Both the position numbers and the translations under genes were made by a program. From a virus, in IMG/VR virus record IMGVR_UViG_3300042444_000523, positions 1 through 24,886 of that record: a DNA stretch of 24,886 nucleotides; one strand, written 5' to 3'. Positions 923-8,946 of this stretch are shown piece by piece. The notes under the pieces were generated by a model. The model did no database searches, was not told the DNA's origin, and saw nothing but the letters and a program-made list of their open reading frames with translations. Position 1 is the stretch's first letter. Each line of letters starts with the position of its first letter.

Positions 923-954
923 TTTGGAAGTTCGGTCTTAATTTCCTATATTTA
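923..954 (+). promoter_or_regulatory. Bacteroidota-type promoter candidate
   Basis: TTTG at 923-926 is followed after exactly 20 bases by TATATTTA at 947-954. This is near the Bacteroidota primary-sigma consensus (TTTG at -33 and TAnnTTTG at -7), with one mismatch in the last base of the -7 element. It would start transcription at about 959-962, exactly at the long-range hairpin beginning at 961. The same spacing is found at 1560-1591. Not tested experimentally. Confidence 0.5.
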
Positions 955-959
955 TATTA

Positions 960-1100
960 CGAAGGGTGGTGATTTACTCATATTGATAGTGCCATTTCAT
1001 ATTGTTAGTTATACAACAGCCACCCTTCTTTTATAACGTTTCTTTTTTATACGGTTGGATATACCCTGCAGCTTTATAAGGTTCACTGCAGGGTTTTTTT
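960..1100 (+). ncRNA. Candidate structured small RNA
   Basis: No convincing ORF lies here. The predicted start follows the promoter-like pair at 923-954. The first bases form a perfect 9-bp stem (961-969 with 1020-1028) enclosing 50 bases. Inside are a small TTGT/ACAA stem-loop near 1002-1018 and a direct repeat of TCATATTG-N-TAGT (near 978-989 and 996-1007). The RNA would end at the intrinsic terminator at 1063-1100, about 140 nt, or at the second terminator near 1164 if read through. It could instead be only a structured trailer of the upstream operon. It is not a tRNA: no T-loop consensus and no 3' end that fits. Confidence 0.4.
1063..1100 (+). terminator. Rho-independent terminator
   Basis: The perfect 9-bp stem ACCCTGCAG (1063-1071) and CTGCAGGGT (1086-1094), with a 14-base loop, is followed directly by a run of seven T (1094-1100). 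It would stop transcripts from the left-hand operon and from the promoter-like pair at 923-954. Confidence 0.85.
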
Positions 1101-1125
1101 AAAATCTGTTTTAATGTTGAATATA

Positions 1126-1164
1126 ACCCTGTAGCTTTTCACTGACGCTATGGGGTTTTTTTTT
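1126..1164 (+). terminator. Second tandem intrinsic terminator
   Basis: ACCCTGTAGC (1126-1135) pairs with GCTATGGGGT (1147-1156) over 10 bp, two of them G-U pairs, and is followed by nine T (1156-1164). It resembles the terminator 60 bases upstream in both stem and loop (shared ATA-CCCTG-AGCTTT core), so the two look like a duplicated pair. It separates the small-RNA block from the endonuclease gene. Confidence 0.8.
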
Positions 1165-3358: not shown

Positions 3359-4522
3359 TTATATTTTTGTTGGGGTTTCAGGATTATCTACTACTAATGG
3401 TGCTTCATTCACATCACCAGTTTCGTATATGGAAAGAGGTTTAATTTCAAATGTTGTTGGTTGTTGGAACTTGATAGAACACAATTTATCAAACACACTT
3501 AACAATTGTTTTTGGTATGGCATAATAACTGTCTTTCTTACAAACTCAATATGTGTTACAATTTCATCTTTACTACCCAACTTGTTAGCAGTGCTAATAC
3601 CAAATAATTCACCACTTGAAATACGATGTGCAGACAAAATAGAACGCACAATATCATCATAAATTGTTTGATAGTATTGGTCGTTTCCACTTGTAGCTAT
3701 TTGTGTAATTTCAGGTGATAGTTCCTTACTTTCGTTAAAGGATATAATTGGTCTACCTGCGTTATTAACTGATGTGAATTGACTTTCTAATGCACGTGTA
3801 ACTAAACGCTGTTCTTCGTCACCAGGGATGCCGTTATTCATATTAATCCATAAAGAAGGTAACATACCATTCTTTAAATTGTTAGCGTGAAATTCTTTTA
3901 TATTCACATCAATTTCAATTGATGCAAGACCGCCACTGTAGTCAGGGTGCGGATAGTACGATTGTGATGGTGAATATTGTTTGTAGTAATAGATTTGATT
4001 AGGGTCATTTTTTTCTTGGTCAAAACAAGCGTACTCTTTTGGTGGGAACTTTTTAGTGTTACTCCAATCAGGTGAGTAGTAATATTTTTCTACCTTATCT
4101 GTTTCAGGGTCAATCTTACCACTTCTAATTCTACTAAAATCTATATGGTATATTTCAGCAATTGATTTTCTATCACGTGACCAAATTACGTTTAACGCAA
4201 ATCCACCAAACAAGATTAAATCTAATGTAGCTTTTTCAAACACGTCCATTACTCTTTCTGATGGGTTAATTAAATTAACTGTAGCCATCGGGTTGTTCAT
4301 ACTTACAATACCATCACCACACACTTGTTCTTTCTTAGATATTACGATAGCTTTATGGATAGCACAATTGTTATATCTTGATATTAAAAATTGAGGCATC
4401 AAATTTCCTTCACCATAAAGGACATAATCTAATCTGTTTAGTACTTCACTAAAAATTGGAAGTAATGGTTCTTGCGTAAAATTGGTTTTACCTAATTGGT
4501 ATTTTATTTTTTCTTCACTCAT
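3359..4522 (-). CDS. Portal protein
   Basis: A 387-residue protein with the portal layout: an N-terminal wing that begins with helices around residues 22-60 (ISRYNNCAIHKAIVISKKEQ), the GGFALNVIW core (106-114), strand-rich residues 117-165, the Y-x-x-P-H-P-x-Y loop and IKEFHANNLKNGMLPSLW (208-225), and a long stem helix (IVTHIEFVRKTVIMPYQKQL, 321-340). The portal is a dodecameric ring at one vertex of the head through which DNA enters and leaves. At 387 residues it is shorter than many portals (about 400-700) but complete. The connector gene follows after one base and a small beta-rich gene precedes it by two bases. The large terminase gene usually found next to the portal is not in this window. 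Confidence 0.85.
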   Translation of the reverse strand: MSEEKIKYQLGKTNFTQEPLLPIFSEVLNRLDYVLYGEGNLMPQFLISRYNNCAIHKAIVISKKEQVCGDGIVSMNNPMATVNLINPSERVMDVFEKATLDLILFGGFALNVIWSRDRKSIAEIYHIDFSRIRSGKIDPETDKVEKYYYSPDWSNTKKFPPKEYACFDQEKNDPNQIYYYKQYSPSQSYYPHPDYSGGLASIEIDVNIKEFHANNLKNGMLPSLWINMNNGIPGDEEQRLVTRALESQFTSVNNAGRPIISFNESKELSPEITQIATSGNDQYYQTIYDDIVRSILSAHRISSGELFGISTANKLGSKDEIVTHIEFVRKTVIMPYQKQLLSVFDKLCSIKFQQPTTFEIKPLSIYETGDVNEAPLVVDNPETPTKI

Positions 4523-7443: not shown

Positions 7444-8946
7444 TTATTTATATTTTTTTAAAACTTCTACTACTTTCTGCAGGAACATTTCCTCACGACA
7501 GAACGCAGCCACTTCTTCAAAATATCCCGAAACGGAGTACCCTGCTAATTCACCTGACTTTACCATTTCCCATACCTTGTCACCTTCAGGTGTTTTTGCT
7601 ACCTTCATCGCAACAAACCACGTACCTATTGGTAAATCATTATAACCATACTTGTTGGATTTATCTTCCATATCTTCCTTAATCCAACTTTCTACCACAT
7701 ACACATCTTTAACTGCTGTACCATCGTGCATCAAATCGTTATTACGTGTGTATTGGTTCTTCATATATTTTTCTGCTATCATTTTTATTGTGTCAACTGA
7801 AAAATAAACTGAATAATTTTCACCATCTTTTGTGCGACGTGGGATGCGTAAATCAGGCACCATCGCAGGTCCGATAATCACACGCTTTTCTTCATCAGCA
7901 GCAAATTTCTTTTCTTTCTTTTTCTTTTTAATACCAGGGTCTTCATATCCACCAATTGAACCTACATCATAACCAAAATCATTTAGCTTACTTTCACTCC
8001 AACTTAGTGCGGACTTACCACCCCAACTATCGTACATTAACTTACCACATCCATCATCATATGACTTACTTGATTGTAAATCTACTTCGTGTCTTGATAA
8101 GTAACTATACATTCTTTTAACGGTGTCTAAACTAATAGGTTCACCATTAGCTAATTGATTAGCACGTATTTTTCCTACCTCAGTTCCACAACTTCCCCAT
8201 CCATTTTCTTCTACATATTTGAGTACTGCTTTCGCATTATTCTTAACACTATCAGGATAGTCACTTACACTTTCCATTTCTACTTTACTGAATGATGGAT
8301 GTGCAGGTACAACTGTTGAAGGTTGTTCCATTCCTAATACCCTTGTGTCTAATGGTGCTTGTGGGTCAATTTTACCCTTATTTACGGACGCTTTATTAAT
8401 TATGGTAGCATCTTTCGTATATTCTATCCTCGCCCAAATATGACGACAATTATAGCCACCACGCCATACTATTGCAGGGTCACCTTCATCGTTCAATTGT
8501 GCGTCCATATCTTCCAACCTCCACACATAATTCTTTTGGATTAATTCCCTACAAAAATCCCTTGTTGTTGGAATAATTGCTGGTGCTTGTGCAGCAGGGT
8601 TCAATACGTATTTATATCTAACCTTATATTCTGTTTCATCTTCTGCTGATGGTGCATTAGGTTGAGTAGCATTAACTGCAAACCCTTCCTTACCCATCGG
8701 TGTTATTTTTGATATAACCCAACCATCATCAAATAAGTCCTGTTCATTTTCTGCAACAGCAGCTAATTTTTCTATATACTTATTATCTTCCCCATCAGGA
8801 ATGTGAAACTCTTGTTGTTTTACTTTATTAAAGTACATCCAATTTATTTCAATCGCAGGTTCATCAACAAGTGATATACTATCTATACCACTAACTTCGT
8901 CATCTTCTTCTATTTTTAGTTCAAATACTTTATCTTTTCTTATCAT
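7444..8946 (-). CDS. Multidomain XkdF-type prohead protease fusion
   Basis: A 500-residue protein with several recognisable parts. Residues 7-32 (FELKIEEDDEVSGIDSISLV then DEPAIE) are a common opening of Bacteroidota phage prohead proteins. Residues 129-174 (RDFCRELI...GGYNCRHIW) match the conserved end of Mu gpF-like minor head proteins. Residues 229-320 (VKNNAKAVLKYVEENGWGSC, then IRANQLANGEPISLDTVKRM, then DGCGKLMYDSWGG) are a block I have seen in phage head proteins but cannot name. Residues 356-476 are the XkdF-like serine protease: H407 in DLMHDG, the VESWI and IGTWFVAMKV strands, and GYSVSG with the likely nucleophile S471. A Lys-rich linker (340-347) separates the protease from the rest and could be a self-cleavage region. 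The enzyme would process scaffold and capsid proteins during maturation. It is longer than plain XkdF proteases because of the N-terminal parts. Confidence 0.75.
   Translation of the reverse strand: MIRKDKVFELKIEEDDEVSGIDSISLVDEPAIEINWMYFNKVKQQEFHIPDGEDNKYIEKLAAVAENEQDLFDDGWVISKITPMGKEGFAVNATQPNAPSAEDETEYKVRYKYVLNPAAQAPAIIPTTRDFCRELIQKNYVWRLEDMDAQLNDEGDPAIVWRGGYNCRHIWARIEYTKDATIINKASVNKGKIDPQAPLDTRVLGMEQPSTVVPAHPSFSKVEMESVSDYPDSVKNNAKAVLKYVEENGWGSCGTEVGKIRANQLANGEPISLDTVKRMYSYLSRHEVDLQSSKSYDDGCGKLMYDSWGGKSALSWSESKLNDFGYDVGSIGGYEDPGIKKKKKEKKFAADEEKRVIIGPAMVPDLRIPRRTKDGENYSVYFSVDTIKMIAEKYMKNQYTRNNDLMHDGTAVKDVYVVESWIKEDMEDKSNKYGYNDLPIGTWFVAMKVAKTPEGDKVWEMVKSGELAGYSVSGYFEEVAAFCREEMFLQKVVEVLKKYK

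Follow-up and report, generated by a model that had tools for sequence, protein, structure and literature searches.

Phages are known to encode antisense RNAs that block the translation of phage genes, such as sar of P22, c4 of P1 and P7, and OOP of lambda. These RNAs are encoded in cis or are processed from the transcript which they target. Trans-acting sRNAs with a seed in a loop are known in bacteria, including Bacteroides, and in HK022 the put antiterminator RNAs form their fold right at the 5' end of phage transcripts. The c4 antisense RNA has been reviewed (PMC12197685). The mRNAs of Bacteroidota are without Shine-Dalgarno sequences; initiation is tuned by low structure and by adenines preceding the start codon, and is lowered by pairing close to the start (PMC6847099). 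Little has been published on sRNAs from phages of Bacteroidota, and the open-access papers that we searched describe none.

The candidate RNA analyzed here resembles sar, c4 and OOP in being phage-encoded and structured and in its proposed control of phage genes by pairing, but it has a promoter of its own, shows no overlap with its putative target and exposes a seed of six constant nucleotides on a free stem. With the bacterial seed-loop sRNAs it shares the short seed in a loop and the own promoter and terminator; in contrast to them it is encoded by a phage, in a setting without Shine-Dalgarno sequences, and its seed would be aimed at the start codon itself. Like the put RNAs it folds at the extreme 5' end of a phage transcript, but it also occurs in phages that have no downstream gene on its strand, and in most members a terminator follows.

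Promoter and coding content of the locus

The window, i.e. the whole stretch of DNA analyzed, is a viral record of 24,886 bases from IMG/VR and represents a fragment of a phage. Its minus strand carries genes for portal, head protease, a collagen-like tail fibre and other structural proteins, while the left end holds small genes on the plus strand. Among the latter, a sequence-only reading had proposed a small RNA unit (positions 923 to 1164) with a promoter of the type TTTG-N20-TATATTTA and without ORF. Both elements of this promoter were located on the plus strand. The -33 element TTTG (923-926) fits the consensus TTTG/TAnnTTTG of Bacteroidota-type (sigma-ABfr) promoters (PMC6847099) and is kept upstream of the RNA in 11 aligned relatives. 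After a spacer of 20 nt it is followed by the -7 element TATATTTA (947-954), where TATATTTATA shows little or no variation among the aligned upstream regions of the 11 relatives. The arrangement TTTG-N18-22-TATATTTA occurs twice in the window, as compared to 0.24 expected occurrences. Judged from the -7 element, the RNA would start at approximately 958-961.

No ORF of at least 60 aa lies inside the unit, in agreement with the earlier reading. The ORF for an HNH endonuclease (1150-1551) overlaps the second terminator solely by virtue of an upstream start codon, the conserved start being at position 1192.

The closing stem and its conservation

Directly after the predicted start, the closing stem P1 is formed by the arms 961-970 and 1019-1028 of the plus strand. 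The proposed 9-bp stem 961-969/1020-1028 is indeed 100% complementary, and 10 bp are reached when one G-U pair is counted. The RNA from 959 to 1030 has a predicted folding energy of -23.5 kcal/mol (z = -5.1; none of 200 shuffled sequences was equally good), and the centroid fold places an inner hairpin and the apical loop region at 984-1004. In this region a short UGA/UCA helix is paired in all 11 aligned sequences, with one compensatory pair.

The sequence-only reading had suggested searching for compensatory changes in P1, uncompensated loss of the stem being the outcome that would speak against it. We found strong compensation: in the alignment of 11 sequences, five of the nine pairs show compensatory double changes, which was matched in none of 500 shuffles, and slid controls were far lower. 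For example, the first pair is G-C, C-G or U-A among the relatives, and the third is A-U, G-C or U-A. In divergent members the stem is completely rewritten (GACCGGTCGGA/TCCGACCGGT, GTCGGGGG/CCCCCGAC and GGGGAGCCC/GGGCTCCCC). Alignment A6, which contains opposite-strand matches, was left out of the pair counts, and counts on stems that had been chosen for their complementarity are circular and were excluded as evidence. Such maintenance of the structure by compensatory change is expected of an autonomous small RNA.

Distribution of the RNA among related phages

Searching with the portal protein yielded 51 and later 80 related contigs. Altogether, the family comprises 49 distinct RNAs with a median length of 67, carried by dozens of related uncultured phages of the Bacteroidota type. 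There is usually one RNA per genome, and most records contain exactly one copy. Two copies, together with two portal operons, were found in L094 / record G010 (57 kb), which probably joins two related phages in one chimeric or concatenated assembly. The position of the RNA is the same in the relatives: it is located 3' of a run of small genes and 5' of variable cargo genes, facing the end of the structural operon.

The link between stem and transcription start, which the sequence-only reading had considered unlikely for unrelated elements, is retained throughout the family, since each of the 49 versions lies directly after a promoter -7 box. In the clearest members TATATTTATA is found directly 5' of the stem, and in other members a -7-like box is located 0-9 nt 5' of it. 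An own promoter at a fixed distance is thus, like the compensated stem, a property in which the element behaves as an autonomous small RNA.

Members were recovered by several routes. A covariance model built from the 11-sequence alignment revealed more divergent members in related records, with an adjoining -7-like box. A pattern that combined the -7 box with the loop motif UGCCAU and made no demand on the stem added more members; where the genomic context was right, the stem is present, and the few chance matches in unrelated contigs are without it. Conversely, a search of all collected loci that was blind to the motif (stem of at least 8 bp with at least six G-C pairs, starting at most 8 nt from the -7 box) returned 27 distinct elements, and all 27 contain UGCCAU in the loop. 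Among 59 loci collected via the putative target protein (see below), the stem was found in 29, of which 28 contain GCCAU and the other one TGCCA; a relaxed search of these loci added five RNAs with diverged -7 boxes. These results bear on the possibility that the element is a terminator or a chance structure with no further role. P1 with its U-tract does resemble a terminator with a large loop, but the presence of UGCCAU in 27 of 27 elements and the covariation already contradict this explanation, the constant proximity to the promoter also speaks against it, and we regard it as highly improbable.

A comparison with 50,697 phage records showed no similarity, an exact-pattern search with the 5' arm sequence matched only unrelated coding DNA, and no such element was detected in Nonlabens phage P12024S, the nearest isolate according to the portal protein (28.5% identity). 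In the relatives L233, L234 and L235 no RNA of the family was found. The Rfam 15 covariance models gave no match at the gathering threshold in the window or in L060, and the window contains no detectable tRNA. The open-access papers searched hold no description of such an RNA family.

Terminators and downstream genes

P1 is followed by a short U-tract (1029-1032, plus strand), a possible first termination site, which is longer in many other members. The two intrinsic terminators of the earlier reading are also present on this strand. Terminator 1 (1063-1100) consists of a perfect 9-bp stem (1063-1071/1086-1094) and a T run, and is kept in L013 and L005/L007. Terminator 2 (1125-1164, originally placed at 1126-1164) is a near-copy of it, with an 11-bp stem (1125-1135/1147-1157) that includes two G-U pairs and is followed by a T run; in L007 a G-U pair is changed to G-C (GCTATGGGG to GCTACGGGG). 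Both were missed by a simple terminator scan because the latter permits loops of 3-8 nt only. The 3' arm of terminator 1 can also pair with the 5' arm of terminator 2 (1086-1103/1117-1134), which would give an antiterminator-like alternative. The best Rfam match below threshold, the trpB motif, scored 34.6 bits on the terminators (1063-1164), its cut-off being 59.

The double terminator is common only to the window, L013 and L005/L007; elsewhere one terminator or just the U-tract is found, and terminator sequence and spacing vary among the relatives. Thus, the proposed RNA of 140 nt with a double terminator holds for the subgroup of the window, while neither its length nor the double terminator is a property of the family, in which 961-1028 is the conserved unit. 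Since the U-tract that ends P1 in many members could itself terminate transcription, the 3' end could be near 1032 instead of 1100.

In the window and in the relatives closest to it, the next gene on the same strand encodes the HNH endonuclease, and other, non-homologous genes are found at this place elsewhere. The free-standing endonuclease gene (1192-1551) is directly 3' of the RNA in only some close relatives and is probably a mobile insertion. In G020, L027 and L045 a downstream gene on the same strand is absent. No relatives were found for a downstream gene of 191 aa, which argues against its role as a conserved partner. Together with the restriction of the double terminator to close relatives, the variable downstream genes delimit the conserved unit as promoter, P1, loop and U-tract. 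A cis-acting leader (riboswitch or attenuator) or a put-like antiterminator for downstream genes would also be a structured RNA at the start of a transcript followed by terminators, and in L044 and L148 an ORF begins right after the U-tract. However, such a leader should be accompanied by a conserved downstream gene, and instead these genes are non-homologous between relatives or missing on that strand, and the terminators are not conserved in sequence or spacing; we therefore consider a role of this kind quite improbable, and the variable or absent downstream genes point to an autonomous RNA. In line with the earlier proposal, the comparative evidence strongly supports a phage small RNA under a promoter of its own: 49 versions, the fixed distance to the -7 box, the compensatory changes in the stem, the independence of downstream genes and the lack of coding capacity.

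The loop motif and its candidate target

The most constant part of the RNA is the loop motif UGCCAU (990-995, plus strand), which is nearly invariant across the 49 members: GCCA is found in all of them, and the preceding and the following U in 48 each. GCCAU has a mean unpaired probability of 0.78, as compared to 0.61 for the remaining loop positions. The motif UGCCAU is complementary to AUGGCA, i.e. to a start codon and an alanine codon, and we propose that it serves as antisense seed against AUGGC(A) start codons. Mimicry of CRISPR repeats or of an anti-Shine-Dalgarno sequence was also considered and was rejected on the ground that the stem sequence is not conserved.

When the gene start regions of 13 phages were ranked by their predicted pairing with the phage's own RNA, a family of ~75-aa proteins (c10) came first. 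Its mean rank was 0.015-0.02 among all phage genes, while the lowest mean rank of any family in 200 seed shuffles was 0.11. The c10 gene is located on the same strand, 0.3-2.8 kb upstream of the RNA. ATGGC starts are present in 22 of the 63 genes just upstream of the RNA and in 40 of 480 genes elsewhere (p = 8e-8). The upstream ATGGC genes pair better with the RNA than other ATGGC genes (p = 5e-4), and own RNA-target pairs reach a mean of -13.8 kcal/mol, as compared to -12.25 kcal/mol after permutation between phages (40 pairs, p = 1e-4; p = 1e-4 and 2e-4 when only 25 and 22 dissimilar pairs were kept), p-values that are optimistic since the pairing statistics rest on homologous, non-independent sequences. 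Complementarity to a translation start that exceeds shuffled controls and is specific for the own phage is what an antisense RNA should show, a few members being without a local target. The earlier suggestion that the RNA could act on phage mRNAs thereby becomes specific, the loop being complementary to phage start codons and chiefly to that of one small upstream gene.

The better pairing with the own target and the excess of upstream ATGGC starts would be left unexplained if the loop served to bind a protein of the phage or the host, or as a decoy that imitates an anticodon-like loop or some other loop, with an incidental complementarity to start codons. Protein-binding hairpins usually do have this appearance, with a short invariant motif carried by a covarying stem, but on balance we consider this explanation improbable. 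Mimicry of the tRNA-Gly(GCC) anticodon loop does not fit the loop size, which is 8-10 nt and not the 7 nt of an anticodon loop.

The duplexes predicted between RNA and target are of modest strength, with energies of -8 to -20 kcal/mol. In G007 and G002, the closest relatives of the window, 14-15 bp can form between UUUGAUA[2 nt]GCCAUUU and AAAUGGC-UAUCAAA. The window ends before the target position, and the target of this phage would, as read from these two relatives, be the same gene. The best match inside the window (10 nt, at the start of the gene at 694) is within chance expectation, being equalled in 59 of 300 shuffles; it is a perfect complementarity between 995-1004 of the RNA and 690-699, at the start of the directly upstream gene (694-906). 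In L230 the target starts with AUGGUAC, and the RNA of L230 is among the best partners for it. Where the c10 gene does not start with ATGGC, the pairing can be taken over by the neighbouring gene, which by our reading of its sequence encodes a winged-helix-like protein (no Pfam match). L121 and G025 have the same RNA, which pairs with the start of this gene at -18.1 and -17.4 kcal/mol, and the RNA of L045 pairs with it through a different part of the loop. The c10 protein is predicted to be a three-helix bundle (pLDDT 90). It belongs to no Pfam or PHROG family and has no convincing match in the PDB by sequence or fold, its only good structural matches being uncharacterised phage proteins.

In six members (L051, L033, L027, L123, G027 and L168) no local target scored above shuffles; in L033 and L051, ATGGC genes located further along pair at -15 kcal/mol. 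In outgroup phages, which do not have the RNA, ATGGCA starts are retained, and in L233-L235 the gene of the target family starts with ATGTCA and not with ATGGC. The invariance of UGCCAU where no local target exceeded the shuffles suggests that another constant partner may exist, either in the host or as a protein bound by the loop. One may imagine an autonomous sRNA whose motif mainly pairs with AUGGC mRNAs of the host, or with several of the phage, and which contributes to host takeover. AUGGC starts are present in many genes, and the motif is kept even in members in which the upstream gene does not start with AUGGC. However, the extended pairing follows the upstream gene of the own phage, which a generic seed against the host would not need, and no portal relative was found in genome_contigs. 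We regard this explanation as unlikely, albeit the least unlikely of those weighed against our model.

A hydrophobic ORF of 28 codons (MAYTLSIAPYFIAAALVIYKFNRLTKLK) with an ATGGCA start and a promoter-like TTTG on its 5' side was noticed at 1611-1697.

Proposed mode of action

We consider it probable that the element is an autonomous antisense sRNA of the phage, the UGCCAU loop of which pairs with AUGGC starts, mainly that of the ~75-aa upstream gene, and blocks ribosome binding. This model is based on the observed conservation, covariation, autonomy and complementarity and on the better pairing with the own target; that the RNA is expressed, pairs physically and represses rather than activates is what we infer from them. 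An RNA of ~70-78 nt would be transcribed from its own promoter of the host type, or of up to ~140 nt in the window if transcription reaches terminator 1. The freely covarying P1 would close the RNA and present the single-stranded loop with UGCCAU. The loop would then pair with the AUGGC start codon and flanking bases of phage mRNAs, mainly that of the three-helix protein and sometimes that of the adjacent winged-helix-like gene, and by blocking ribosome binding it would repress initiation at AUGGC starts. Pairing over AAAUGGC would cover exactly the initiation site, and translational repression would thus be the simplest outcome.

We conclude that these RNAs most likely represent a new family of phage antisense sRNAs, in a lineage without Shine-Dalgarno sequences. 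The family is ubiquitous in a widespread group of aquatic phages and offers a defined seed and a candidate target. It could be a natural case of sRNA control where no Shine-Dalgarno sequence is available for blocking, so that the RNA would act on the start codon itself. It is tempting, though rather speculative, to regard UGCCAU as a universal anti-start-codon seed against AUGGCA, through which a regulon of mRNAs from the phage, and perhaps also from the host, would be controlled in a phylum whose translation starts without the help of Shine-Dalgarno sequences.

Other features of the window

Among the structural genes (ORFs 3359-4522 and 7444-8946), the portal protein of this phage is short, with 387 aa as compared to 449-450 aa in some relatives. 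A protein of 500 aa encoded upstream of the portal gene matches both the C-terminal region of portal proteins and a head protease, as if the portal were split.
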